Made by a program: the position numbers and the translations under genes. From a virus, in the IMG/VR virus record IMGVR_UViG_3300037321_000128, positions 1-38,213 of that record: a stretch of 38,213 nt of DNA. One strand, written 5' to 3'. This document shows positions 12,718 through 33,497 of this stretch, one piece after another. A model generated the notes under the pieces. The model was not told the DNA's origin. It saw nothing but the letters and a program-made list of their open reading frames with translations, and made no database searches. Numbering within the stretch: position 1 is the first letter of the stretch; each line of letters opens with the position of its first letter.

Positions 12718-14364
12718 TTATTGGCCGGCGAGTCCGGCGAGGGATTGGATACCTTCGGCACCGCCAAGGGAGCCTACGGCTTTTGCAGCCTCTGCGGCTT
12801 GCTGGGCTTGCTGTGCTTGGGCGCGGGCTTCGCGCATGGCGGCGATGGCCTCCGGTTCCTTGATGAAGGTTTCCGGGAGTCCCTTGTAGCGCATGAAGGC
12901 GGGGCCGATGGTGTCGGTATCCAGGAAATCAAAGATGCCGGGATCTACCTCGGCGAGTGGCAAGAGGACGTTGATGCAGTCGGCGAAGTTGGCGATTTGG
13001 GATTGCTCTAGCGCTAGTGCCATGGTCGAGGTGTATTCGACGGCAGGCTCGGCGATGAATGCGGACAGCTCGCCTTGCTGGAGGACGGATTGCGGCGGTG
13101 GCGGGAAAGCGCCTTGACGGAGGAGGATGTTGAAGGAGCGCTTGAGAAGGGGCCCTTGGAATTCCCGGATCAGGTTGGCGAAGATGGGGTGGAAGAGTTC
13201 CCGGGATTCGGAGACGATGGCGCGGACTTCGGTGGCGGTGGCGTCGCGGTCGAGCTGCGAGATGGCGTTGAACAGGGGGACGTAGAAGGCCTCCTCGATG
13301 GCGCGGCGCTTGTCCTGCGCCCCGTCCTTGGCGATGTCATAGCGTCCGCCGGTCAGCCATTCCTCGGGTTGTTGGCCGTTTGCAGGATCGTAGCATGTGA
13401 GTCCGAGGGCGCGGAAGTTGACGTCGCCCTTGAGGTTGGCTCCGTAGCGGACACGGGGGAACGCGGATACCTCCAGAAGAGTATCTTTCATCTGTTCGAT
13501 GAAGTTCGCCTGGGCCGCTTCGGGAAGGGCGAGGATGGATGGTGCCCACCCGTAGGGGGAATCGCCCCATGTTTCCCAGCGGGAGACGGCGAGGGGGAAT
13601 TCGTCGAATCCCTCTTCGCGTAGGAGGATCTTTTCCTTGCAGAGGATGTAAGTGGACTCGAAGGGCTTGGATTTTGAATCGGTCTTTCGCGGGTCGCGCA
13701 TCATCCGGGGGCGGATGGTGTGCCGGACTTCCATCGGTTCCAGGGCTTCGCGGGGATCGGTGAGCTTTTTCAAGACACACTCCGGGGTATCGTCCCCGAA
13801 CATTTGTTTGATCTGCTTCGGGGTGAGACGATGCAGGCGGGTGAGGGTGTCGATCTCCGAGAAATCATCCTCGGCAACGGAGTAGGTGCCGATGGGGTAG
13901 CTGCGGAAATGCAGGCCGCGTCCGCCTTTTCCCGAACAAGTCTCGGTGGCGGCGGTGCCGAATGCGCCCCGGTCGAGGTAATGCTCCTTGGCGATGTTGT
14001 AGAAGTTGGATGCTGCCAGGGCGCGGGAGAGGATTTCCCCGCAATACTGATACCATGAGACGGCGGACGGGTTTTCCGCGAGGCCATCCGGTGGGCGTAG
14101 GGCGAACCATCGCGCTCCCATGGGTGTGATCCGGGCTGCTTGGCCGTTGGCGAGGGTGCGGTTGGAACGCTGGGCGGTGCCATCGAAACTCAGGGCGATC
14201 TGGCCGCGCTCCGGGCTGCTTCCGTGCGGTGCGCGGTTCTGGGTGAGGGAGCGGCGGGGGTGGCAAATGTCAGCCTGTTCCTGCCAGAGAGAATCCCATG
14301 GAGCGCGGCGGGCGTCCATGGCGGAGCCGAGTTCAAGGATCTCGTCGATGCGCTCGCTTTCCAT
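12718..14364 (-). CDS. Portal protein (T7 gp8-like head-tail connector)
   Basis: The gene encodes 548 aa, starting at ATG 14364, which overlaps the stop of the 62-aa gene as TAATG. T7 gp8 has 536 aa. The sequence carries the usual features of the podovirus connector family: an N-terminal helix followed by W-x-S-L-W-x-E (residues 23-29), LDRGAFGTAATE in the middle, WGDSPYGWAPS, a helical channel segment with ATATEVRAI, and a Gln/Ala-rich C-terminal tail. The start at 14784 in the longer frame is rejected because it would read through the 62-aa gene with Arg/Pro-rich sequence. It forms the dodecameric DNA channel at the capsid vertex. Confidence 0.9.
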   Translation of the reverse strand: MESERIDEILELGSAMDARRAPWDSLWQEQADICHPRRSLTQNRAPHGSSPERGQIALSFDGTAQRSNRTLANGQAARITPMGARWFALRPPDGLAENPSAVSWYQYCGEILSRALAASNFYNIAKEHYLDRGAFGTAATETCSGKGGRGLHFRSYPIGTYSVAEDDFSEIDTLTRLHRLTPKQIKQMFGDDTPECVLKKLTDPREALEPMEVRHTIRPRMMRDPRKTDSKSKPFESTYILCKEKILLREEGFDEFPLAVSRWETWGDSPYGWAPSILALPEAAQANFIEQMKDTLLEVSAFPRVRYGANLKGDVNFRALGLTCYDPANGQQPEEWLTGGRYDIAKDGAQDKRRAIEEAFYVPLFNAISQLDRDATATEVRAIVSESRELFHPIFANLIREFQGPLLKRSFNILLRQGAFPPPPQSVLQQGELSAFIAEPAVEYTSTMALALEQSQIANFADCINVLLPLAEVDPGIFDFLDTDTIGPAFMRYKGLPETFIKEPEAIAAMREARAQAQQAQQAAEAAKAVGSLGGAEGIQSLAGLAGQ

Positions 14365-14552
14365 TATCCGAGGGTGGATTTCATCCCCTCCGGTAGGGCG
14401 GACGCACCGGGGCGAAGGAGGGTTTTGGAAAAGTCGTAGCGGTCGCGGGTCTTTTTGCGGAGGCCGGCGGCATCCTGGGCGACATCGGCGGAGTTCGCGG
14501 TGGTGGCTGCGGATGGCGCGGGTGGTGCGGGCGGTGCTTTTGGCGACTTCAC
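14364..14552 (-). CDS. 62-aa protein preceding the portal gene
   Basis: A GTG start at 14552 gives 62 aa: an Ala/Pro-rich N-terminus, then a basic DAAGLRKKTRDRYDFSKTLL segment. Its TAA stop overlaps the portal ATG by one base, so the two are translationally coupled. Small proteins with a basic R-rich segment ending near T-x-L are frequent in this position in podoviruses, but their role is not established. The 15-mer motif lies about 35 bases upstream. Confidence 0.7.
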   Translation of the reverse strand: MKSPKAPPAPPAPSAATTANSADVAQDAAGLRKKTRDRYDFSKTLLRPGASALPEGMKSTLG

Positions 14553-14587
14553 CCGGCCAGAATGCGGGTTTTGCTCCAGGGAGAGGG

Positions 14588-14602
14588 TTTAAGGGGTGGC
14601 AA
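14588..14602 (-). promoter_or_regulatory. Late-region 15-mer motif, copy before the portal operon
   Basis: Minus-strand TTGCCACCCCTTAAA overlaps the last codons (L-A-T-P-stop) of the 113-aa gene and precedes the 62-aa and portal genes. The exact identity with two noncoding copies suggests selection on the DNA rather than on the peptide. Confidence 0.55.
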
Positions 14603-14930
14603 GGGGGATGGTCATGCGGCGGAGGCGTTGCTGTCCGCGGCGCTGGAAAGTCACTTCCCGCACGTTGTGGGCGCGGGCGATGGTGAGGAGGGCGTTGACC
14701 GATCCGGCGGCTGCCCATACGTGCCACGTCCCGAGAGTGGGCGGGGATATCTGGAATGGATCGAGGTGCTTTTGATCCTCCCAATGGAAATAGACCGGCC
14801 TTGCCATCACGAATGCGTCAGGGGTGGATACGACTGCTCCAAGCTGGAGATGTATCTCCAGCGCGTCAGACCAGGAGAGTTCCCGGTCTGCGGTGATGTA
14901 ATCGGAGTGGGCGGCGAGGTAGGGGGTCAT
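14589..14930 (-). CDS. 113-aa hypothetical protein between terL and portal
   Basis: ATG 14930 starts a 113-aa protein containing aromatic, well-ordered sequence (HWEDQKHLDPFQ, then TWHVWAAAGSVNALLTIARAH). It lies immediately left of the second attI-like element, whose hairpin would end transcripts coming from the terL side. I do not recognise a family. A small virion or assembly protein is likely from its place in the structural block. Its C-terminal codons contain one copy of the late 15-mer. Confidence 0.7.
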   Translation of the reverse strand: MTPYLAAHSDYITADRELSWSDALEIHLQLGAVVSTPDAFVMARPVYFHWEDQKHLDPFQISPPTLGTWHVWAAAGSVNALLTIARAHNVREVTFQRRGQQRLRRMTIPLATP

Positions 14931-14935
14931 GAGGC

Positions 14936-14970
14936 TTGGAATAAAACCGCGCGTGCGGTTGAATCAGTGG
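14936..14970. mobile_element. Second attI-like site (attI2)
   Basis: Thirty-five bases are identical to the attI next to intI (20298-20332), ending in the G of the G/TT crossover and followed by a cassette. The element contains the inverted repeat AACCGC-GCGT-GCGGTT. On the minus strand this hairpin is followed by TTTATT and could act as a weak terminator. It supplies the TGA that ends the ORF of the adjoining cassette. Confidence 0.8.
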
Positions 14971-15161
14971 TTCTCCTCATAGATTCCACGCTCCGTCGCC
15001 CAATCCACCATGGATGACATCGGGCGTTTCCGTTGGTCTTCGAAGTGCTTGTGGAGCTTTTCCACGCGCTCATTGTGTCGGCGCGTTTCTTCCGCTCGCT
15101 TCCGCATGTCCGCGAAAGTTTCGTTGCCTCTGGCGAGTCCGTATCCGGGGTAGTATCTCAT
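14964..15161 (-). CDS. Cassette ORF, second copy (65 aa, C-terminus set by attI2)
   Basis: Its first 62 or so residues are the same as those of the 79-aa ORF at 22140-22379, because the whole cassette is duplicated. Here the frame meets a TGA inside attI2 after ...EENH, so the product is 65 aa; in the array it continues into the neighbouring attC. It is basic, with MRKRAEETRRHNERVEKLHKHFEDQR forming a predicted coiled coil. Its function is unknown. The comparison shows that the C-terminus of cassette proteins depends on what lies to the left. Confidence 0.65.
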   Translation of the reverse strand: MRYYPGYGLARGNETFADMRKRAEETRRHNERVEKLHKHFEDQRKRPMSSMVDWATERGIYEENH

Positions 15162-15256
15162 AGATTTTTGAAGATGGAGAACAAGGCGGTGGAAGTGACG
15201 GCATACAGCCGTCTGATTAAATTGGAGGCTCTGCGTTGCCGCACTTCACCTCGACG
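14971..15256. mobile_element. Integron cassette, second copy of cassette 6, at attI2
   Basis: The 286 bases appear identical to 22189-22474. Identity starts and ends at G/TT junctions, apart from the TTC that the two following sequences share by chance. This is the footprint of IntI-mediated excision and insertion rather than homologous recombination. The attC of this copy spans about 15176-15262 (R'' GGAGAAC, R' G/TT at 15256). Confidence 0.88.
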
Positions 15257-15328
15257 TTCGCGAGAGTCATTGCCTGCGCCCACAGTCGTTCGGACGTTTG
15301 CCATTCGTGCGTGCCTTCAATCACGGCG
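15217..15328 (-). pseudogene. Truncated cassette ORF or remnant beside terL
   Basis: Between the attC of the inserted cassette and the terL stop are 72 bases that begin TTCGCG after G and end at another GCG/TTAGCG core. The minus strand reads GTG 15324 to 15217, ending in WAQAMTLANVEVKCGNAEPPI-like sequence. Its final residues are encoded by the attC and are shared with the cassette 7 product. No R'' box is present, so this looks like a cassette that lost most of its body, or original phage sequence next to an ancient junction. Confidence 0.4.
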
Positions 15329-16921
15329 TTAGCGGATGGATCGGGGCTTGTGGTTCTGGAGAGAAGGGGCGTTTACCATGTTCCTGCGCCATGCCTCGGC
15401 GAAGGTTCGGAAGGCGTCGGCGGAGTGGGAAAAAATATCGTGCTTGGGCATTTCGCGGAGCTTCTGGACTCCGGCGGCGGAGATGTCTTTCTGGTAGCCT
15501 TCGAGGCAGGCGATGCCAGACGGGAATTCCTCGGCGGTCTGGTCGGGAAGATGGGTGGTGCCGTTGGCGTTGCGGGAGGTATCGCAGTTTTCTTTGTGAA
15601 ACCAGCAATGCGGGAGGATGTCGCGGACGTAGCCGATGCCCAGCCATTTGTCCGGGGTGCGGGGTACAACGATGATGTTGCGCAGTCCGCAGTCCTCGAG
15701 GGTTGACTTGTAGCTTTTCCCGTCGTTGGGGGATCGGGTTTCCGCATCATGCGGCAGGAAGTGGGCTGCGATGGGCTTGTTCCATTTGTTTTCCCAACGC
15801 AGCATCTGGTCTGGCATGGAGGAGGCTGGCATGGATTCCGCCTCGTACCAGTCGAGCACGAGAAACCAGCGTCCTACCGGCTGGATGAGCCATACTGAGG
15901 TGTAATCGGAGAGGCCGATGTCCCAGAATGTGAAGATGGGCAGGGGTTTTTCCAGCCCGAAGGAGGTGATGCGCCCCGCGGCGCGGAGGTTGGCCATCTG
16001 GGTGCCGTAGATCGCGCCATCGAAGACGGCTTCGAAAGCCTCGCCGGGGGTCGAGGGGAATTCCTTTTTCATGCCGTGGCCTTGCTCGATGTGCTTGCGG
16101 TCATACCAGAGCATTTGTTCCGGTGAACAGGTGATGTCGTGTTCCGCTTTGAGGCGGGTGAAATACTTGAGGATTTCCGTCCGGATCTGGTGCCCCCGGG
16201 TGTCGAGCACGTAGCGGGTGTCGCGCCACCATGGGAAGAAATGGAAACGGGAATCGAGCTGGGTGAGGTTGGAATCATCGTTTTTCATGGCGATGTTTAG
16301 GAGGCGGTAGTGATCGCCGATTCGCCCGCCTTCGTGGGTGGATTCGATATTGCGGACGTTGCCCGGGGTCATGGAGTTGAACGCGCCGTTGATGATCTCG
16401 CGCATTTTCTTGGGTGCCCAAATGGCGATTTTCCCCGGTTCGGAAATGTGGATGCGCTGGGGGGTGGTGCCGCGCAGGGAGGTGCTGCAACGGATCGATG
16501 AGCCGTTGGCGAGGGTGAACTTGCGCGCGGCGCGGGAGTGGACTGGGATGGCCTTCTTGATCGCCGCGCCGATGCGCCAGGTTTCCGGGTGGATTTCCCC
16601 ATCATCAAGGTGGTCATAGGCGAGGGCGAACATGGCGAGCTTGGATTCCGCATCGTCGATGGTGTAATCGATGATGCCGGCGGAAAGTCCGACGTGCGAG
16701 AACAGGAGATCGTCGATGTAGAGGATCTGGATGAAGGTGGAGAGGCCGAGCTTGCGGGCTTTGAGGATGTGGTTGCAGAACCACATGCGGTTGTAGAATT
16801 CCCGCTGGGCGTAGTTCGGCTTGAAGGGGATGAGACGGCCTTTGTCATCGGTGATCGTGTAGAGGTTCTGGAGACGCCACTCACGGCTGGCCAGCGGGGT
16901 ATTGGCGAGCTGGGGTAGCAT
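15329..16921 (-). CDS. terL: Terminase large subunit
   Basis: The gene encodes 530 aa from ATG 16921. The ATPase domain has the Walker A variant KARKLGLST (residues 54-62) and a Walker B type strand ending in IHISE with E161. The nuclease domain has FWDIGLSD (D333) and the C-terminal HSADAFRT (D502), as in RNase H-like packaging nucleases. The gene follows terS by six bases. Its TAA stop lies exactly on a GCGTTAGCG sequence identical to cassette cores in the integron, so the last codons border a recombination junction. It powers DNA packaging through the portal. Confidence 0.92.
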   Translation of the reverse strand: MLPQLANTPLASREWRLQNLYTITDDKGRLIPFKPNYAQREFYNRMWFCNHILKARKLGLSTFIQILYIDDLLFSHVGLSAGIIDYTIDDAESKLAMFALAYDHLDDGEIHPETWRIGAAIKKAIPVHSRAARKFTLANGSSIRCSTSLRGTTPQRIHISEPGKIAIWAPKKMREIINGAFNSMTPGNVRNIESTHEGGRIGDHYRLLNIAMKNDDSNLTQLDSRFHFFPWWRDTRYVLDTRGHQIRTEILKYFTRLKAEHDITCSPEQMLWYDRKHIEQGHGMKKEFPSTPGEAFEAVFDGAIYGTQMANLRAAGRITSFGLEKPLPIFTFWDIGLSDYTSVWLIQPVGRWFLVLDWYEAESMPASSMPDQMLRWENKWNKPIAAHFLPHDAETRSPNDGKSYKSTLEDCGLRNIIVVPRTPDKWLGIGYVRDILPHCWFHKENCDTSRNANGTTHLPDQTAEEFPSGIACLEGYQKDISAAGVQKLREMPKHDIFSHSADAFRTFAEAWRRNMVNAPSLQNHKPRSIR

Positions 16922-16927
16922 TGGGGT

Positions 16928-17419
16928 TTACATTTTCCCGGTGGGCAGAACCCCGGCCGGGGCGAGGGACTGGATGGCGGCGGCAAGGTCTGCCAGGGCG
17001 TTGGTTTCCGGATCGTCGCCGGAGAGCTTGTTGTCGATCTCGATGGCCTTGAGCGCACAGTATTTCTCCATTTTGTATCCAAACTCGCTGGATTCGTATT
17101 TCTTGATGAGTTTCCCGTGTTTTCGCCCGGTATCCTCCGGATCGATGTCCATGAGCGGGGTGTCCATGATGAGGAAAAGGAACTCCCGCTTGTATTGGAC
17201 GGAGGCGACGGCTCCCTTCGCCGCCTCTCCCTGGATGGCGCGGATGTAGGCGCGGACATCCTTCCGCTTGGACATGCGCATCCCTGCGGCTTTGGCGGCT
17301 GCCGGGCTGCATTTGTAGCCTGCACCGAGGTAGGCGTCCGAAAGGGAGTCCCCGGCGAGCTGCCGGTCGGCGAAACGCTGGTGCCGGGGATCTTTGGGGA
17401 TGAGGTCGGGAGCGATCAT
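16928..17419 (-). CDS. terS: Terminase small subunit
   Basis: The gene encodes 163 aa from ATG 17419, in ATGA overlap with the preceding HTH gene. The N-terminal half has the helix-turn-helix and conserved pattern of the small terminase family (RFADRQLAGDSLSDAYLGAG, then SPAAAKAAGMRMSKRKDVRAYI). A helical oligomerisation region follows. It recognises phage DNA and stimulates TerL, which is encoded next. Confidence 0.87.
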   Translation of the reverse strand: MIAPDLIPKDPRHQRFADRQLAGDSLSDAYLGAGYKCSPAAAKAAGMRMSKRKDVRAYIRAIQGEAAKGAVASVQYKREFLFLIMDTPLMDIDPEDTGRKHGKLIKKYESSEFGYKMEKYCALKAIEIDNKLSGDDPETNALADLAAAIQSLAPAGVLPTGKM

Positions 17420-18649: not shown

Positions 18650-19311
18650 CAGTCGTCGTCGGGTTCGAGTGGTGGCCAGTTGTCGACGGGCTGTTCGGGG
18701 GGGAGTGGTTTGACCCATGGACTCCTGCCAGTGGGATTGCTGCGGTCCCTGCGCTCCTTGGTGAGGCAATCGTAGGCGGGGGCAAAAATTTCCCGGGAAT
18801 GGGTGGTCAGCTTCCCGTTCGGAGGCATGATTGCGGTGCCTGCGTTGAAGCGGATGAAGAGCGGATCGGGCCGCATGGAGGGACCGGCATAGACCATGCA
18901 GCGGGGCAGGCGGGCGAGGAGCTGGAGATGGGAGAGTCGTACGCGGTGGTGGTGGCCGATGCGCCACACGGGCGAGGGGGAGGGTGTAAAATCCGCTTTC
19001 CAGGGATTGATCGGGGCATGGGCGTAGAGGAGTCCCCGGATGTCATCGAGCGGTCGCCACTCCGGGCCATCGTCCGGGAAGCGGTGCCAGGGCAGGTTCC
19101 CCAGCCTTTCTTTGAATCCATCGGGCGGCGGGGAAAAATCGCATTCCATCCAGCGTCCCCGCCGGGCGCGGATGGCGATGTGATGGTTTCCCGCGGTGAG
19201 ATCCCCGTCGAGAAAATGGGGCAGGTGGAAGGGACTGGCCGCCGAGGGGTGACAGAACAGGGCGATGTCTCCGGCGAGGAGCGGGAAGGTGAAGGGTGCT
19301 TTGCTGGTCAT
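18649..19311 (-). CDS. 220-aa hypothetical protein between intI and the replication gene
   Basis: ATG 19311 overlaps the intI stop as ATGA, and the stop overlaps the replication gene start as TGATG. The protein is rich in Pro, His, Trp and Arg, with globular stretches such as FHLPHFLDGDLTAGNHHIAIR and RPDPLFIRFNAGTAI. I recognise no family. The two overlaps place intI, this gene and the replication gene in one translationally coupled unit. That is strong evidence that the integron is an integral part of the phage. Confidence 0.75.
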   Translation of the reverse strand: MTSKAPFTFPLLAGDIALFCHPSAASPFHLPHFLDGDLTAGNHHIAIRARRGRWMECDFSPPPDGFKERLGNLPWHRFPDDGPEWRPLDDIRGLLYAHAPINPWKADFTPSPSPVWRIGHHHRVRLSHLQLLARLPRCMVYAGPSMRPDPLFIRFNAGTAIMPPNGKLTTHSREIFAPAYDCLTKERRDRSNPTGRSPWVKPLPPEQPVDNWPPLEPDDD

Positions 19312-20285
19312 GCGGTGCGGCGGAGTGGCAGGGATGCGATGGGACTGGGTAGGGAGAGGCATTCTTTCCGCGCGTAGCCCATGGTAGTTCGGATGTCGGC
19401 GTGTCCCATGGCTTCCTGGACGCGGCGGGGGCTGTGGCCTGCATCCATGAGATCACTGCAATAGGAGTGGCGCAGGCAGTGCGGTGTGATCTTGCCCGGG
19501 ATCCCGGCGGCTTTTCCCGCGCTCTTGATTGCCCGCTGGATGACATCCTCCCCGATGCGCCAGCGCACAATTTTGCGGGTGCGCGGATGGGGGCAGGGAT
19601 GCTGCGAGGGAAAAAGGAAGTGCCATCCGACCTCGAACTGCTTTCCGGGGTATTTGATATCAAGACGGCCAGGGAGCTGGACGGGCTGGAGTGCGGCGAT
19701 GTCGATTTCCGCCAAGGCAGTGGCGCGGTGGATCTGGCGTCGGATGGCGGGGAGAAGAATTTCCGGAATGGGAACCTGCCGGTCCTTGTCGCCCTTGTCC
19801 TCGTGAATGGTGAGAACCATCCGCGCGAGGTTAAAGTCCTTGATCCGAAGTTCGCAGCCGGATTTGACGCGAAGTCCACAAGCGTAGAGCAAGGAGGCGA
19901 GAAGGCGGACGTTGTAGGTAGGGGTGTTTTTCAGGTGTGCGAACAAAGCGGAAATTTCCGACTGGGTGGGAACGTAACGTTCTCGGCATCCTCGTTTGCA
20001 GCGGAGGGCGGAGACATCACCGATCTCTACCTTGGCGATGTGGCGGTAGAAAAACAGGATCGCGTTGAAGGCTTGGTTCTGGGTGACCGATGAGTAGTCA
20101 TCGTGCGCCATGGTGCTAAGGAAGGTTTCCATTTTAGCCTCGGATGTGGGGCATTTCCGCGCTTCCGAGGTTGTGAGGAAATCCAAATATTTGACGAGCC
20201 AGGACTGGTAGGAACGCTCGGTGGAGAGAGCCACGCGGCGGCGGGCAACCATCGTGAATCGCTTTAGAATTTCAGCTCGTGTCAT
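19308..20285 (-). CDS. intI: Integron integrase IntI
   Basis: ATG 20285 gives 325 aa, the usual IntI length. It is a tyrosine recombinase with R139 (ACGLR), K164 (HEDKGDKDR), H269 and R272 (PHCLRHS), H295 (MGHAD) and Y304 (TTMGY). The N-terminal STERSYQSWL and TQNQAFNAILFFYRH are typical IntI blocks. Between the patch regions lies the extra segment that separates IntI from XerC/D: the stretch around LDIKYPGKQFEVGWHFLFPS (about residues 208-227), matching the KYP...WGWQYVFPS element of class 1 IntI. The gene points away from attI and its cassettes, the classic integron layout. Its C-terminus ends in ATGA with the next phage gene. Confidence 0.93.
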   Translation of the reverse strand: MTRAEILKRFTMVARRRVALSTERSYQSWLVKYLDFLTTSEARKCPTSEAKMETFLSTMAHDDYSSVTQNQAFNAILFFYRHIAKVEIGDVSALRCKRGCRERYVPTQSEISALFAHLKNTPTYNVRLLASLLYACGLRVKSGCELRIKDFNLARMVLTIHEDKGDKDRQVPIPEILLPAIRRQIHRATALAEIDIAALQPVQLPGRLDIKYPGKQFEVGWHFLFPSQHPCPHPRTRKIVRWRIGEDVIQRAIKSAGKAAGIPGKITPHCLRHSYCSDLMDAGHSPRRVQEAMGHADIRTTMGYARKECLSLPSPIASLPLRRTA

Positions 20286-20297
20286 TGTTTTGATTAG

Positions 20298-20332
20298 TTG
20301 GAATAAAACCGCGCGTGCGGTTGAATCAGTGG
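20298..20332. mobile_element. attI: Primary attI site
   Basis: The element lies 13 bases from the intI start and ends in GTGG/TTCGAC, where cassette 1 begins. It contains the inverted repeat AACCGC-GCGT-GCGGTT. The identical 35 bases precede the lone cassette at 14971. On the minus strand the repeat is a hairpin followed by TTTATT, so it may also damp transcription from the array into intI. Confidence 0.85.
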
Positions 20333-20344
20333 TTCGACAAAGAA

Positions 20345-20674
20345 ATGGAAGAATCCTCACCACCACCCGTTAAGCGAGGCGATTGGATACTGAGAGATGT
20401 GATTCCGTCCATGTGTCCTTGGGCAATTATTTCTGCTGTTTACGATCCATCACTGATTGAAGTGATGTGCTTTTCTGGTGAGAAGGTTATTAAGGTTGAT
20501 TGGAAGTGGACTGGGCACACTTGGGGCATTCTTGCGGACTATGGTATGGAGTTGGATGATCGGAGCGGACAGCTTCGGCAAAGGATCTTAGATTCCCCAC
20601 CTGCTGACCTTCCGGTAATATGTTTTGGAGACACCCGCCCGAATACCATATCAGTCGTTTGGCGCGCCAGATGA
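20345..20674 (+). CDS. Cassette 1 protein (109 aa), the only ORF in the attC direction
   Basis: ATG 20345 lies 12 bases inside cassette 1, and the ORF ends about 105 bases before attC1, the classic cassette layout. The sequence looks globular (RGDWILRDV, then WAIISAVYDPSLIEV, KVDWKWTGHTWGIL). I recognise no family. With no visible plus-strand phage promoter, expression would need an integron promoter near intI or attI, and this cassette is the one next to attI. Confidence 0.6.
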   Translation: MEESSPPPVKRGDWILRDVIPSMCPWAIISAVYDPSLIEVMCFSGEKVIKVDWKWTGHTWGILADYGMELDDRSGQLRQRILDSPPADLPVICFGDTRPNTISVVWRAR

Positions 20675-21128
20675 ACGGCGGATCTTCATGCAGAACCTCC
20701 CACGCCAATGCTAAGTTATTTCCTAGTCGCACAAGATCCCTTTTCCAGCTTTCCTTGTCCTCCAATGAAAAAAAAGAAGTCGAACAAGGCGGAGCATCCG
20801 ACGCCGAGGAAGGCGTCTGATCAATTTCAGCATCTGCGCGGCGCGGATGTCCTCTAACGTTCTCTCCAGGATAGCCCGGTTCCACCAGCGGCATGTTGGC
20901 TTCAAAGTTTCCAGACATTGCGGCATCGATCGCTTCACGGAGACTGCCGATGTTTTCCATCACGGCGCCCACCGGGAGTTGCACGTTTCCGATTTCGTTT
21001 TTTGGATCAGCCAGCCAGTCAATGCGGAGTTTATCGGCCATGAGATTGTCCCAGTCTTCGGACGTTTTGCCTGTGTCGAACGTCTTGCGTCCTACTCGGC
21101 CATATAGTTTTCCTTCGTATTCTAACAT
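20490..21128 (-). CDS. Cassette 2 protein (212 aa frame), reading through attC1 into cassette 1
   Basis: ATG 21128 lies 32 bases inside the right border of cassette 2. The first 90 or so residues (MLEYEGKLYGRVGRKTFDTG, then DWDNLMADKLRIDWLADPKNE) are convincing. The frame then passes without a stop through attC1 (encoding DQTPSSASDAP) and on into cassette 1, where it overlaps the plus-strand ORF in antisense. The part beyond attC1 includes SWKRDLVRLGNNLALAWEVL, which is also protein-like. The real C-terminus is uncertain. Its function is unknown. Confidence 0.55.
   Translation of the reverse strand: MLEYEGKLYGRVGRKTFDTGKTSEDWDNLMADKLRIDWLADPKNEIGNVQLPVGAVMENIGSLREAIDAAMSGNFEANMPLVEPGYPGENVRGHPRRADAEIDQTPSSASDAPPCSTSFFSLEDKESWKRDLVRLGNNLALAWEVLHEDPPFIWRAKRLIWYSGGCLQNILPEGQQVGNLRSFAEAVRSDHPTPYHSPQECPKCAQSTSNQP
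20779..20865 (+). repeat. attC: attC1
   Basis: R'' GTCGAAC followed by AAG; L'' GGA[G]CATCCG pairs with L' CGGATGTCC with one extra G on the L'' side; R' core ACG/TT at 20859. The unpaired base in L'' sets the attC direction as plus. Confidence 0.88.
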
Positions 21129-21159
21129 TGATTTGGAGTTGATTGGTAATTCGGAAGAG

Positions 21160-21248
21160 AGAGAACAAGGCACAGATGGCGACGCCGAGAGGCGTCCCCA
21201 TTGAAGCCGAGTCATTCGCGGCGTCGCGCCATTGTTTGATCGTTAGCG
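21160..21248 (+). repeat. attC: attC2
   Basis: R'' AGAGAAC plus AAG. The arm beginning CA[G]ATGGCG pairs with CGCCATTG, with an extra G in L''. Core TCG/TT at 21242. Confidence 0.88.
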
Positions 21249-21433
21249 AGAATGTCGTGGCGCCGGATTTTTAGTAGGCTCAACGTGTGGGCTTCGATTC
21301 CTCTTTGCGTGGCCAGGTCTTGCGGATCGGCATAGAGTTTCATCGAGGCCGTCAGAGCTTCGATTCTGCATTCCATTTCGATGATGCGAGCCGACAAGGC
21401 GACGATTAGTGCGGTGTTGTTTGGTTTGGACAT
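21212..21433 (-). CDS. Cassette 3 protein (73 aa)
   Basis: ATG 21433 lies 24 bases left of the attC3 R'' box. The protein is helical (SARIIEMECRIEALTASMKLY, then QRGIEAHTLSLLKIRRHD) and may be a short coiled coil. Its last dozen residues (…TMARRRE) are encoded beyond the G/TT junction, inside attC2. No family is recognised. The orientation is opposite to attC3 and the same as phage transcription. Confidence 0.6.
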   Translation of the reverse strand: MSKPNNTALIVALSARIIEMECRIEALTASMKLYADPQDLATQRGIEAHTLSLLKIRRHDILANDQTMARRRE

Positions 21434-21456
21434 AGCTTTTAGGTGATTCTGAAGAT

Positions 21457-21546
21457 CGCTAACAAGTCGTGGGAGAGCGACGCCGATGAGAGCGTCTGAT
21501 CAATTTGGGCACTCATAGCGGCGCGCCTCCACTTTTGACGTTCTGT
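21457..21546 (+). repeat. attC: attC3
   Basis: R'' CGCTAAC plus AAG; L'' GTGG[G]AG pairs with L' CTCCAC; core ACG/TT at 21540. A minus-strand mini-ORF also starts inside it (ATG near 21514) and stops just before the cassette 3 start. Confidence 0.9.
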
Positions 21547-21803
21547 GGAGAATCGATAATGACGGCTTCGTCGGTGTTTCGGATCTTCCCCGATCCACTA
21601 CATTTCTTGCATGATGCCCCGGCTTGGTTTCGACGGGTTCTTCTTTGTACAGTCCATGTTAGTCCCGTTCCCGAGCACTCGCGGCATTTTTTCAGCTCTG
21701 GGAATGCGAGAATAACGGAAGACACAGAACAAGTCGCGGCAGAGGCGACCCCCAGAGGCCTGTCTGATTTGGCGGGAGTTTTTGGGAAAGAGATCGTTTT
21801 CAT
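21513..21803 (-). CDS. Cassette 4 protein (96 aa) with DnaJ-type CxxCxGxG motifs
   Basis: Two zinc-binding repeats are visible: CRECSGTG (residues 40-47) and CKKCSGSG (65-72), as in DnaJ-type zinc fingers. The only ATG in frame (21803) lies inside attC4, so the first 25 or so residues are attC-encoded leader. The C-terminal residues reach into attC3. Many small phage proteins carry one such finger pair; the partner is unknown. Confidence 0.65.
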   Translation of the reverse strand: MKTISFPKTPAKSDRPLGVASAATCSVSSVILAFPELKKCRECSGTGLTWTVQRRTRRNQAGASCKKCSGSGKIRNTDEAVIIDSPQNVKSGGAPL

Positions 21804-21851
21804 TCGTTCGGAATCGTTGGGATTGGGGTCGCCTGCGCTATTGCGTTCTGC
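21724..21851 (+). repeat. attC: attC4
   Basis: R'' ACAGAAC plus AAG; L'' GCG[G]CAG pairs with L' CTGCGC and the stem continues GGCGACCCC / GGGGTCGCC; core GCG/TT at 21845. It is a long form of about 128 bases with a coding-capable loop. Confidence 0.9.
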
Positions 21852-22147
21852 AAATAATGATGAGCGCATTGAAGTTTAGCGTCCTCAATGCTCGGCTCGG
21901 TGTGATGCGGATTATCCCAGACAGAGACTATCCGCTTGTATCTCGTCCCGTAACAGACCCGTGAGAGCCATTCTTTCCGCTGGCGGATAACCATATATTG
22001 CGTGGATTCGTCAGCCTTTACTACCCAGACCTCGCCAGGTTCTTCCCACTTGACCCATTCCCAAAGAGGCAGAACAAGTCGTGGCAGAGGCGACCCCAAG
22101 GAAGCCTTCTGATTTGCGGGAGTTTGATTGGAGTTAGAATCATTCAT
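21800..22147 (-). CDS. Cassette 5 protein (115 aa)
   Basis: The start at ATG 22147 (or ATG 22143, out of frame) is inside attC5. The first 25 or so residues (MNDSNSNQTPANQKASLGSP) are attC-encoded. The body has WVKWEEPGEVWVVKADEST, then YMVIRQRKEWLSRVCYGTRYKR and HYLQNAIAQ, a small SH3- or beta-barrel-like protein. The C-terminus runs into attC4. No family is recognised. Confidence 0.62.
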   Translation of the reverse strand: MNDSNSNQTPANQKASLGSPLPRLVLPLWEWVKWEEPGEVWVVKADESTQYMVIRQRKEWLSRVCYGTRYKRIVSVWDNPHHTEPSIEDAKLQCAHHYLQNAIAQATPIPTIPNE

Positions 22148-22194
22148 GGTTTGCGGAGTCTTGGGATTGGGGCGTCTGCACTATTGCGTTCTCC
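22069..22194 (+). repeat. attC: attC5
   Basis: R'' GCAGAAC plus AAG; stem GCAGAGGCGACCCC with GGGGCGTCTGC-type partner; core GCG/TT at 22188. It closely resembles attC4 in length and arms. Confidence 0.88.
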
Positions 22195-22379
22195 TCATAG
22201 ATTCCACGCTCCGTCGCCCAATCCACCATGGATGACATCGGGCGTTTCCGTTGGTCTTCGAAGTGCTTGTGGAGCTTTTCCACGCGCTCATTGTGTCGGC
22301 GCGTTTCTTCCGCTCGCTTCCGCATGTCCGCGAAAGTTTCGTTGCCTCTGGCGAGTCCGTATCCGGGGTAGTATCTCAT
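22140..22379 (-). CDS. Cassette 6 protein (79 aa), duplicated at 14964-15161
   Basis: ATG 22379 lies just left of the attC6 R'' box. The protein is basic and helical (MRKRAEETRRHNERVEKLHKHFEDQR) with a C-terminal WATERGIYEEN. The last residues (AIVQTPQSQDSANHE) come from attC5, while the copy at attI2 ends after one further residue. This pair shows directly that moving a cassette changes the C-terminus of its product. Its function is unknown. Confidence 0.68.
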   Translation of the reverse strand: MRYYPGYGLARGNETFADMRKRAEETRRHNERVEKLHKHFEDQRKRPMSSMVDWATERGIYEENAIVQTPQSQDSANHE

Positions 22380-22474
22380 AGATTTTTGAAGATGGAGAAC
22401 AAGGCGGTGGAAGTGACGGCATACAGCCGTCTGATTAAATTGGAGGCTCTGCGTTGCCGCACTTCACCTCGACG
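22189..22474. mobile_element. Cassette 6, array copy of the duplicated cassette
   Basis: Its 286 bases match 14971-15256. The left neighbour is attC5 here and attI2 there; the right neighbours differ after the shared TTC. Exact G/TT limits at both ends support site-specific movement by IntI. Confidence 0.88.
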
Positions 22475-22480
22475 TTCTCT
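22394..22480 (+). repeat. attC: attC6
   Basis: R'' GGAGAAC plus AAG; a stem around GCGGTGGAAGTGACGGC pairs with GCCGCACTTCACC; core ACG/TT at 22474. The same site occurs at about 15176-15262. Confidence 0.88.
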
Positions 22481-22782
22481 GGAGAATGAAGAGCGAGGAA
22501 ATCGCGCATCATCGTCTCTGCGGAAGCCTTCAGCCAGTTCAGAAGTCCGGCATTGTATAGCCCCTCTATTTCGAGTTCGTCTGAGATGAAGGCGCCGAAC
22601 ATGTGACCGCGATCATTGCGATGCGGCAGCAGCTCGATCATGAATAGAGTCATTCCCGGAGCGCAGCGGGAAGATCCGATTATTACACGCTCTCGCTGTG
22701 GATGCGGAGTCCACACAAGCAGAGAACAAGTCGGCGTAGGCGACCCCGAGGAAGCCGTCTGTTTAAGTTTTGGGGTATTCAT
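22435..22782 (-). CDS. Cassette 7 protein (115 aa)
   Basis: ATG 22782 lies inside attC7, so the leader MNTPKLKQTASSGSPTP is attC-encoded. The body has GMTLFMIELLPHRNDRGHMFG, then LEIEGLYNAGLLNWLKASAE. The end NVEVKCGNAEPPI is encoded by attC6 and recurs in the remnant at 15217. No family is recognised; the His-rich centre has no clear metal motif. Confidence 0.62.
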   Translation of the reverse strand: MNTPKLKQTASSGSPTPTCSLLVWTPHPQRERVIIGSSRCAPGMTLFMIELLPHRNDRGHMFGAFISDELEIEGLYNAGLLNWLKASAETMMRDFLALHSPENVEVKCGNAEPPI

Positions 22783-22843
22783 AAAGTTTTAGATGTAGCG
22801 GTGTGGCTCTGAGCCTCTGGTCGCCTAGCCTTTGGCGTTCGTC
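22721..22843 (+). repeat. attC: attC7
   Basis: R'' AGAGAAC plus AAG; L'' GGC[G]TAGGCGACC pairs with GGTCGCCTAGCC; core GCG/TT at 22837. Confidence 0.9.
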
Positions 22844-22847
22844 TGAT

Positions 22848-23474
22848 TCATTTGCGCTCCCATGGTTCGGCGTAGGGTAGTCCCACGAAGGCGAAGACTG
22901 ATTCCTCACTGTCCATGGCTGTCACAGTTCCGTCGGCGAGCCGCGTATATCCGATGCCGTAGGGGTTCCATCGATAGCCCCGGCGTTGCGCTTCGGTCGC
23001 GATCCGCGTGTTGCTGTCGGCAGGGCCAGTGCGGCATACCAGATAGTTCCACCACGATTCCGGCACCGTGCGGAAGAGATCGACGGGCATTCCTGACCGA
23101 TGGACGGCGAGTTTGTTTTTGTCGCCCCACGCCGTCCCGCCAGTTTTCGAGGGGCGCTTTGTCAGTGTTCCATCGCTCAGCATCCTGCCGATTTCTTCAT
23201 CGGCCAGACTGACCGCGACGGTTGCGAACATATCGAGCGGCCTATCCTCCATGCGCGACACGTAGAGGATTTCCACGTCCCCCACGTCTTGCTTTCGGCG
23301 TCGTAGGCTTCCGGCCACTATCAGATTTTCGCAGAAGGGTTTGAGTCGGTCGCAGAGTTCACGCGCCACATCGAGCGCCGCGCTTCTCGGATACCGCACT
23401 TTCGCAACAGACGAACAAGAGTCTGATCCCAACGGGGACCGCTCTGTTGTCGAAGTTTGAGGGTGATTTTCCAT
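22848..23474 (-). CDS. Cassette 8: DNA polymerase X-like nucleotidyltransferase (208 aa)
   Basis: ATG 23474 is inside attC8; the first 20 or so residues are attC-encoded. The core has the family X palm pattern: AGSLRRRKQDVGDVEIL with G55 S56 and acidic residues D66 and E68, then D132 in MPVDLF. The C-terminal GYRWNPYGIGY and EESVFAFVGLPYAEPWER match the end of Pol X catalytic domains. The helix-hairpin-helix DNA-binding domain is missing, so it is a minimal palm/thumb protein. It could add nucleotides in gap repair or modify another substrate. Such single-domain forms also occur in other phages. Confidence 0.82.
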   Translation of the reverse strand: MENHPQTSTTERSPLGSDSCSSVAKVRYPRSAALDVARELCDRLKPFCENLIVAGSLRRRKQDVGDVEILYVSRMEDRPLDMFATVAVSLADEEIGRMLSDGTLTKRPSKTGGTAWGDKNKLAVHRSGMPVDLFRTVPESWWNYLVCRTGPADSNTRIATEAQRRGYRWNPYGIGYTRLADGTVTAMDSEESVFAFVGLPYAEPWERK

Positions 23475-23531
23475 AATTATCGTGAGGGCGGGCTGGCGCT
23501 CTCGTCCCCATGGGATAGACAAGCGTTAGCG
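23410..23531 (+). repeat. attC: attC8
   Basis: R'' GACGAAC (nine-base match CAGACGAAC to the cassette start) plus AAG; GTCT[G]ATCCCA pairs with TGGGATAGAC; core GCG/TT at 23525. Confidence 0.9.
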
Positions 23532-23806
23532 AGAGGAATTTCCTCTTCTTCAGGCTCGCCCCTTTCTTCGATGCCGCCTCGGTTCATGCTCCAGTCAGGC
23601 ATCTCCTCGCCCCAACATTTATGCTTGGTGTAGTAGCGTGTGATCGCGGCATTGCATTCTGGATGGTATCTCGCTTGGAAGAAGTCGCCTTCCCACACGC
23701 CAGACGTATAGACGGACGGCGTGCCTGCTTCGATGCTTTCCCCGCACCATCCGCACCATTTTGCGGAGCGAGTTTTTTTTACGGGTGTCTCTCGGTGGAA
23801 GCTCAT
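23477..23806 (-). CDS. Cassette 9: small zinc-binding protein (109 aa)
   Basis: ATG 23806 lies 34 bases left of the attC9 R''. Residues C18 and C21 (KWCGWCG) with H48 and C51 (RYHPEC) form a CxxC...HxxC zinc site, then comes an acidic tail (GEPEEEEIPLAN). Small phage and cassette proteins with this knuckle are common, but their substrates are not known. The last residues lie in attC8. Confidence 0.72.
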   Translation of the reverse strand: MSFHRETPVKKTRSAKWCGWCGESIEAGTPSVYTSGVWEGDFFQARYHPECNAAITRYYTKHKCWGEEMPDWSMNRGGIEERGEPEEEEIPLANACLSHGDESASPPSR

Positions 23807-23839
23807 ATTGATTCGGTGGTTTTAGATTATTCGGAAGAT

Positions 23840-23928
23840 CGCTAACAAGGCGAGGATGGACGACGCCGTTGAAGGCGTCTGATTAAAGTGGAGTTTGATT
23901 GCGGCGCGCCATCTCTTCAGCGTTCATC
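23840..23928 (+). repeat. attC: attC9, last site of the array
   Basis: R'' CGCTAAC plus AAG; GAG[G]ATGG pairs with CCATCTC; core GCG/TT at 23922. To the right no further R'' complementary to the next start (GTTCATCC) is seen before the RusA gene, so the array ends here. Confidence 0.88.
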
Positions 23929-27128: not shown

Positions 27129-28301
27129 TTAGGAAGCGGAGGAATTAAACCCCAGATCGGGGAGGGTGTCGATGGCGCGTTTGAGGGCGGCGTCGTGGTG
27201 GGTGTAGATGGCGTGTGAGGATGCGGTGGAGTGGCCGGAGAGCTTCTGGCGAACATCGGCGTGGATGTCTGCGGCGGCAAGCCATGAGACGAAGCTGTGG
27301 CGGAGGGAGTGGTAGGAGCGGGACGCCTCGATGCCGCCGGGGAGGGTGATGAGCGCGGGAACGCCGGAGCGTTTCATGATAGCCCGGAACTGGGTGGAGA
27401 GTGTGGGCGCGGATTTCCCGGAAAGCTCTGGGAAGAACTCCCCTTTTTTCCCTGAAACGTACGCGAGGAGCGGAGGGGTGAGGGGGATGCGTATCAGCTT
27501 GCGCGAGCGTTTGGTTTTGGTCGGGCGGATAACGATGTCGGTTTCCTCCAGATGGGCGGCGGTGAGGCTGGCAACGTCGCCAAGGCGAAGGCCCGTATGC
27601 GCCCCGAAAAGGATCATCCCCCGCCATTCTGGGATGGTGAGGGGATGGTCGAGCATGGCGCGGACTTCGGCGGTATCGAAGGGGGCACGCTCCTTGCTAT
27701 CGTCTTGGGGGAAGGGTTTGATGGCCGTGGCTGGATTCTTCGGGATCGTGCCGTCCTCCTGGGCTTGTGCGAGGACTCGGCGGAGGGCGCGAAGGTCGAG
27801 GTTGACAGTAGATCCTCGCAGTCCGGCGCCTTTCATCTTGCGCATGGCGTTCTCGATCTGGGTGCGGGTCAGATCGGCCACGCTCGCCTTCATAACTGCG
27901 GGGGAGAGGTATTGGGTAAAATGCCGCATCATGTCGTAGTAACCTCCTGCCGTCGAAGCGCTGACACGGTGGGTCTTTTCCTCGCACCATGTGGTGAGGA
28001 CTTCGGAAAGGGTCAGTATCCGGAAATCCGGATCGGACACGCGGCGCATCTCGTCAAGGAATTCGGAGGCCCGGTCGAGGGAGAGTCGTCCAGTCCGCGC
28101 GTCGGAGCTGACACGGGAGAGAATTTCCTCATACTTCCGCCCGTGATCCGTCTTGGCCTTCCGGTCTTTTGACTCGTAATCTGCTGCTATCCTTTCCGCC
28201 TCGCGGCGTTTCGTCTCCTTTGTCCCCCGCTTTTTCCGGGTTCCGTCGGTGCGATACCACTGGGCAATCCACTGCTTGCCATGCCAAAAAACCGTTGCCA
28301 T
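27129..28301 (-). CDS. int: Phage tyrosine integrase
   Basis: ATG 28301 gives 390 aa. The N-terminal arm-binding domain (residues 1-60) has the FWHGKQWIAQW start seen in many phage integrases; a SAM-like core-binding domain follows; the catalytic domain has HTGLRLGDVASLT (Arg), a Lys in the TKRSRK region, HSLRHSFVS (His, Arg), LSGHST (His) and YTHHD with the Tyr nucleophile. It lies right beside the tRNA-like attP. It differs clearly from IntI: it is longer and has no extra IntI segment. It should integrate the phage at the host tRNA. Confidence 0.93.
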   Translation of the reverse strand: MATVFWHGKQWIAQWYRTDGTRKKRGTKETKRREAERIAADYESKDRKAKTDHGRKYEEILSRVSSDARTGRLSLDRASEFLDEMRRVSDPDFRILTLSEVLTTWCEEKTHRVSASTAGGYYDMMRHFTQYLSPAVMKASVADLTRTQIENAMRKMKGAGLRGSTVNLDLRALRRVLAQAQEDGTIPKNPATAIKPFPQDDSKERAPFDTAEVRAMLDHPLTIPEWRGMILFGAHTGLRLGDVASLTAAHLEETDIVIRPTKTKRSRKLIRIPLTPPLLAYVSGKKGEFFPELSGKSAPTLSTQFRAIMKRSGVPALITLPGGIEASRSYHSLRHSFVSWLAAADIHADVRQKLSGHSTASSHAIYTHHDAALKRAIDTLPDLGFNSSAS

Positions 28302-32681: not shown

Positions 32682-33497
32682 TTAGTAGAAGTCGTTGTAT
32701 CCCGGCTCGCCCTGCGGACCCATGGGACCTTCCGGGCCGATGGGGCCGATGGGGCCTTCCGGGCCTTCCGGGCCTTCCGGGCCGATGGGGCCTTGGGGAC
32801 CTGGTCCACCCATGAATCCGGCGACGCCCTGTTCGCCTTGAGGCCCGACGATGGAGAATCCCATATCCCCCTTGATCCCTTGGAGTCCCTGGACACCCTG
32901 CTCCCCAGCGGGGCCGATGGCTCCCTGGATGCCCTGGATTCCCTGCGGCCCGATGAGTGCGACGATTGCGGCAATGCGGGTAGCGAGGTCGAGCATGGTG
33001 ATGGTCTCCATGGCTCCGGTATCGGCGCGGAAGTAGAGGAGTGAGTCCTTGCGGAGGTGGGGGGAATCCAGCTCGGTGGGGTGGGCGTCCGGCTCGGAAA
33101 GGGGAAAGGTGAGGGCGCGTGCGAAGGGGTTTCCCCCGCCGGCGTCGCGATCCTGGAGCGCCATGATGATGCGGTCGAGGGCGGCTTCCAGGTCTTTGGC
33201 GGGAAGCGGGGAGTTGGGGATGAGCGAAAGGGTTTGGGCCGCCGGCGTGTAGCGGGAAATGGCCAGGCGCGAGGTGGCGGGGACGGCCAGGGTGGTGGTG
33301 ATTTCCCGGGTGGACGGGGTGGGACTGGCGATTGCGAAGTCCACTCCGAGGATGAGCGGTGCGGTGGAGCCGTCCAGGTCGGTGCGGGTCAGATACAGCC
33401 ATGCCGCATCATCAAACCGGAAGGGGACGGGATACGCAACAACGGTTGAGGCGTTGCCGGTGTATTCGATTCGGTTGACGGCGGATTCAAGTGACAC
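32682..33497 (-). CDS. Tail fibre with T7 gp17-like N-terminus and collagen-like stalk (271 aa)
   Basis: GTG 33497. Residues 1-130 resemble the virion-binding domain of T7 fibres ([20 protein letters not shown], then a VDFAI strand and [10 protein letters not shown]). The C-terminal 90 residues are Gly-x-y repeats ([21 protein letters not shown]) encoded by 9-base repeats around 32716-32800, ending in YNDFY with no receptor-binding head. The head may be supplied by the following genes. The 15-mer motif lies 36-50 bases upstream. Confidence 0.82.

Follow-up and report, generated by a model that had tools for sequence, protein, structure and literature searches.

A second attI with a duplicate cassette beside terL in a phage genome, and signs of a recurrent docking site for integron cassettes

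Introduction

Integrons are best known as collectors of resistance genes in bacteria, and those of phages have hitherto been treated as captured host pieces. The ORFs of cassettes in bacterial integrons usually read away from attI (Pc promoter), a feature that is common without being strictly defining. Phage integrons, and the presence of two attI in one prophage, are already known. The complete integrons and CALINs of phages described by Qi et al. (2023, PMC9892861) comprise intI, attI and attC cassettes, as does the integron analysed here, and phage attC sites were shown in that study to recombine with attI1. The intI genes reported there come from the host or from clinical integrons, whereas that of the present locus belongs to a divergent lineage found mostly in phage records, and its attI class also occurs in phages without intI. 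A CALIN holds at least two attC without a nearby intI, whereas the site beside terL holds one attC.

The closest described case is the Shewanella prophage vB_SspM_M16-3 (MZ568829), for which two attI copies in one prophage have been published (PMC9892861); we located them at 14594 and 38615. Like the window, by which we mean the entire virus record IMGVR_UViG_3300037321_000128 (38,213 nt), M16-3 has one intI and two attI, and its second attI heads cassettes among late structural genes. Unlike the window, it is a cryptic P2-like prophage with an ordinary Shewanella-type attI and no reported duplicated cassette; its second site lies between baseplate and tail genes rather than at terL, and its cassette ORFs are sense by annotation, whereas those of the window are antisense. 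In the reverse integron of Treponema denticola (as described in PMC7691350), intI and the cassette ORFs are co-directional, as in the window; there the integrase gene is turned, whereas here the usual intI/attI/attC arrangement is kept and it is the cassette ORFs that are turned. Delta-attI-type cassettes (PMC12901181) also involve a copied, cassette-associated piece of attI, but in these the attI replaces attC downstream of the ORF, whereas in the window the attI is complete, conserved and upstream, and C6 has retained an attC, which places the locus outside that class. Insertion by IntI1 at off-target or attG sites (PMC10127599; attG named in PMC12901181) likewise yields cassettes or rearrangements outside the array. 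The attG class is defined by a non-attI target, whereas a complete attI precedes the C6 copy in the window.

Results

Genome and integron of the window

The two ends of the record (1-148 and 38066-38213) share 148 nt with a single mismatch, an overlap suggestive of a complete genome, either circular or terminally redundant. The minus strand holds the main genes, namely the portal frame, a small conserved gene, terL, terS, a replication gene and intI (Table 1), and we infer a host within Verrucomicrobiota. Since the second tyrosine recombinase is of the ordinary phage type, IntI is not needed as the phage integrase. A late gene at 32709-32798 contains short GC-rich direct repeats in 9-nt steps, perhaps a collagen-like tail-fibre repeat.

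Table 1. Positions of the features discussed in the window.
Feature	Position	Strand	Evidence or remark
Portal / head-to-tail connector frame	12718..14784	-	PF12236, E 6e-91
Small conserved gene between terL and portal	14589..14930	-	Directly after terL in insert-free relatives
attI2, second attI copy	14936..14970	+	35/35 identical to attI1; crossover G/TT after 14970
C6 ORF, 65 aa, co-stranded with terL	14964..15161	-	Final codons NH-stop come from attI2
C6 duplicate loaded in attI2	14971..15256	+	286/286 identical to 22189-22474
attC of C6 copy	15176..15262	+	R'' core AAC at 15180, R' core G/TT at 15256
72-nt stretch between C6 copy and terL	15257..15328	+	Encodes VIEGTHEWQTSERLWAQAMTLAN on the minus strand
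terL, terminase large subunit	15329..16921	-	PHROG terminase match, E 4e-11; tblastn to annotated terminases
terS, terminase small subunit	16928..17419	-	PHROG match
intI, predicted integron integrase	19308..20285	-	TIGR02249 best model; PDB 2a3v IntI4, E 5e-37, IntI insert aligned
attI1, adjoining intI	20298..20332	+	G/TT crossover; kept in other intI-A genomes
Main array, nine cassettes	20333..23922	+	R''/R' boxes at nine sites
Cassette C6, array copy	22189..22474	+	Identical to the terL-junction copy
Second tyrosine recombinase, ordinary phage type, not IntI	27129..28301	-	Profile matches

The protein encoded by intI is predicted to be a genuine, divergent integron integrase. TIGR02249 was its best curated model, at 236 bits against a cut-off of 265 (relatives, 244-282), and IntI4 (PDB 2a3v) was its closest solved relative, to whose insert the IntI-specific insert LPGRLDIKYPGKQFEVGWHFLFPS aligned. 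The catalytic residues R-K-H-R-H-Y were conserved in an alignment (A6) of six relatives. In the array, G/TT points follow positions 20859, 21242, 21540, 21845, 22188, 22474, 22837, 23525 and 23922. The bottom strand of attC6 folded well (z -3.6, with none of 200 shuffles as good); attC2 and attC6 surpassed all 200 shuffles, while most of the nine attC were not clearly better than theirs. RNAalifold over the nine attC returned neither a consensus nor pairs because the loop lengths vary. These also ruled out a covariance model, and attC were located instead by a small attC scanner, which gives false matches in GC-rich DNA at inner scores of 20-22. With the IntI residues and insert, an attI next to intI and an attC array, the integron of the window looks complete and is predicted to be active. 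Among the other cassettes, C8 (22848-23522) codes for a DNA polymerase beta-like thumb plus a partial palm domain (PF14791, PF14792), and the C4 ORF (21513-21803) gave weak DnaJ zinc-finger and Anti-TRAP-like matches under the Pfam cut-offs.

A second attI and a second copy of C6 next to terL

The first-pass annotation had described a 35-base attI copy followed by a 286-base cassette that looked identical to C6, and both identities were found to be complete. The identity of attI2 and attI1 extends rightward to 38 nt because both following cassettes start with TTC, and the next base leftward differs (C versus G). The 35-mer occurs exactly twice in the window, so chance is excluded. Sequence comparison bore out that both C6 copies start and end at G/TT and that the outer flanks differ on both sides. 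Across the 321 nt of attI2 plus C6, no base differs from the resident attI1 and C6, which fits the earlier view that the movement was recent. At the left border the recipient has C/TT, whereas the donor has G/TT (20297/20298). The 14936-14970 element has the sequence of the intI-adjacent site and a cassette starting directly at its G/TT; from these borders and from the relatives below, attI2 would act as a cassette receiver for IntI.

The C6 ORF at attI2 ends in EENH-stop and had no Pfam or PHROG match. Its direction is opposite to that of attC and so the same as that of terS, terL and portal. A promoter-like match was not found in 14500-15500. The 72-nt stretch between the C6 copy and terL comprises 24 codons and keeps to the cassette reading phase at either end. 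This points to a former occupant that has since broken down, and the stretch is probably the remnant of an antisense cassette that lost its attC. This remnant had no match in any relative locus compared. As the annotation had stated, the terL stop codon (TAA, 15329-15331, minus strand) lies on a core motif, within GCGTTAGCG (15326-15334), and this 9-mer recurs at the C8/C9 border (23523). As an attC, the terL end was rejected: no R'' box is present, and 15250-15340 folded worse than shuffles (z +1.8), so the stop position held up and a recombination site there did not.

Cassettes at the terL junction of related phages

Related phages were searched for the same junction, a check already suggested at the first pass. 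An initial set of six records, with terL identities of 62-69%, was enlarged through alignment. The junction is free of cassettes in L007, L008, L010, L032, L034 and L038, and in all of these except L007 the terL stop was seen to abut or overlap the next gene. In L005, L044 and G014, attC cassettes occupy the same terL junction in the same orientation, behind attI-like sequences. An intI-linked array or cassette is also present elsewhere in L005 and G014, and L044 has a partial intI at the contig end.

The sequence left of the first G/TT in these three junctions resembles the intI-linked attI of a second IntI clade. With a matrix trained on intI-linked attI sites of other phages, the junction site ranked third of 501 GTT sites in L005, first of 264 in L044 and first of 859 in G014; scores were 11.6-15.1 at occupied junctions versus at most 9.0 at cassette-less ones. 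By this weak, 14-nt matrix the three sites resemble attI. Phages with an occupied junction are scattered over the terL tree; four changes are required, so this state was gained or lost more than once. The L044 and G014 sites have left-flank sequence in common. The search gave no closer relative in which attI2 was empty or carried another cassette. By eye, the terL-junction ORF of L041 resembles the C6 ORF, and the junction cassette ORF of G014 (L130:8197-8430) resembles window cassette C2.

Divergence of near-identical phages at attI

Two pairs of near-identical phages gave the clearest signs of active attI sites. L018 and L021, recovered from two metagenomes, match at 99.97% across 3705 nt and part at the G/TT of an attI-A upstream of terS, where L021 holds an attC cassette. 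L008 and L009 match at 100% across 5072 nt, and their sequences part at the G/TT of a clade-B attI (near 1137 and 121, respectively), with different first cassettes. On these comparisons, the sites would be in use.

The attI class in phages with and without intI

The block AAACCGCGNNNGCGGTTGAATCAGTSG/TT adjoins intI in all intI-A genomes found, a set of two Verrucomicrobiota genomes (Luteolibacter and Haloferula) and several phage records; the Haloferula stretch is also an IMG/VR virus listing. The attI of G014 has a T in place of one C in the palindrome's second half. attI2 retains the whole block together with further bases leftward. In cells, this attI class was present in 2 of 387 genomes of the order and is thus not a common chromosomal integron.

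The same attI-A, its core block included, was found in at least three phage records of 34-60 kb, G003 (34 kb), G412 (50 kb) and G413 (60 kb), in which no intI was matched by sequence or by the integron integrase model; the records may be incomplete. Terminase matches were obtained in G003 and G413, a portal match in G413 and tail matches in G412, and attC cassettes follow the attI in G003 and G413. One cassette is common to G003 (second; L131:5842-6143) and G412 (first; L283:1957-2258), with 88.6% identity over the exact cassette length. If the absence of intI is real, the enzyme for these three phages must come from elsewhere in the cell.

In G414 (L217), one intI is accompanied by three attI copies that are nearly identical and of the record's own class (23767, 32852 and 37962), and each heads a long antisense frame (121, 257 and 102 codons versus at most 58 in other phases). 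Repeats of intI-upstream sequence in other phages were weakly enriched, at 7/102 loci versus 7/283 control stretches, and only individual cases were therefore used. Weaker cases of a second intI-upstream copy ending at G/TT elsewhere in the record were seen in L180, L253 and L261, and also in L187.

Antisense cassettes and borrowed stop codons

The cassette ORFs did not generally read away from attI: 30 cassettes were antisense-dominant and two sense-dominant in the window and ten related arrays. The pattern was noted in 20333-23922 of the window and in the arrays of L005, L044, L134, L138, L156, L234 and L236. ORFs exceeding 95% of shuffles were antisense in 29 and sense in 12 of the 42 cassettes. 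All 27 border-crossing antisense ORFs lay in one reading phase, where about one third would be expected, and take their stop codon from the neighbouring attC or attI. In that phase, an attI stop occurred within five codons at 26 of 33 sites, versus 5 and 11 in the other phases. Two control attI sites, one of them of class 1, gave no such stop.

Discussion

These comparisons make it likely that the terL-portal junction is a second, recurrent docking site, loaded with C6 by the phage's own IntI. IntI would excise C6 through attC recombination, and C6 would stay in the array because the donor strand is replicated or because the cell holds a further copy of the genome; that donor-strand replication keeps an excised cassette in the array is established knowledge. 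The C6 circle would then enter at the G/TT of attI2, ahead of the remnant of the earlier occupant, an event suggested by the borders seen. With attI2 supplying an in-frame stop in the sequence, the C6 ORF could be read with the terS-terL-portal operon, an expression predicted from this layout. An attI copy left of the crossover cannot be brought by ordinary cassette insertion, so attI2 itself would have been copied by a separate event. Possible sources are off-target excision by IntI of attI and C6 as one circle, or recombination between phages. The first-pass annotation had taken the duplicate as direct evidence of IntI-driven movement; such movement is the best reading of the G/TT borders, the integrase, the attC6 fold and the relatives, although this evidence is indirect. 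Its description of two attI with one intI as unusual gives way to the M16-3 precedent and to the recurrence of the pattern in relatives.

Rather less probable, on present evidence, is that attI2 and C6 came as one unit, with attI2 a passenger and not an established docking site. A circle from the 20297 G/TT to the attC6 G/TT, formed when C6 was first in the array, would have entered the terL junction at a site other than attI, either attG-like or secondary. The left identity border does coincide with the donor G/TTGG, and off-target action of IntI (PMC10127599) and partial attI riding on cassettes (PMC12901181) provide precedents. However, the recipient border is C/TT, the 72-nt remnant by C6 suggests earlier cassette use of the site, and attI-like sites lie at the same junction in relatives. 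It is improbable that attI2 and its cassette were acquired from another phage by homologous or illegitimate recombination instead of IntI acting here. Phage genomes are mosaic, and the left flank common to the L044 and G014 junctions implies a heritable site, but the perfect match to the resident attI1 and C6 (0/321), with borders exactly at G/TT and no common flanks, speaks against such an origin. An assembly chimera within the 38-nt or 289-nt repeats is very improbable: attI and C6 repeats of these lengths are prone to mis-joins by short-read assemblers, but the outer junctions (CATGAGGC-TTGGAAT; C6-remnant-terL) fall outside the repeats, and independent records hold cassettes at the same junction. 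Slimmer still is the chance that the 35-nt element is a repeated transcription terminator or leader and not a recombination site. Its RNA hairpin fold (z -2.4) and its position immediately 5' of gene starts would suit that reading; against it, a terminator scan made no call on attI2, and the element ends at the G/TT where near-identical phages differ in cassettes and adjoins intI in every intI-A genome examined.

Returning to a docking site loaded by the phage's own IntI, we give roughly even chances to a broader proposal, that of a phage-specific kind of integron. Its attI would be mobile and shareable, present in several copies that each lie 5' of a gene and are served by one IntI, and phages without intI would borrow the enzyme. 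Its antisense cassettes, most of them with stop-less genes, would take stop codons in a fixed phase from attI or the adjoining attC, and would move between loci as well as between unrelated phages. If so, cassettes would serve the lytic programme as plug-in genes, aligned with the phage operon, and carriers without intI would depend on the IntI of phages or prophages that share their cell. A landing site duplicated into the packaging operon, along with enzyme-less carriers, would make the integron itself a gene-exchange network of phages. The system also offers a natural test of cassette expression without a dedicated promoter and of recombination sites doubling as stop codons.

Attachment sites in intI-less phages, docking at the terL junction and the antisense/stop-codon pattern had no report in the literature searched, which comprised published papers readable without subscription; within it, the recurrence at the junction, the intI-less carriers and the antisense cassettes appear new. 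As a separate observation, the closest INPHARED match to the window IntI (39%) is a gene annotated xerD in virus Rctr41k (KX853513.1, 4680-5678; L270), which is followed by methyltransferase-like genes and is possibly part of another unannotated phage integron.
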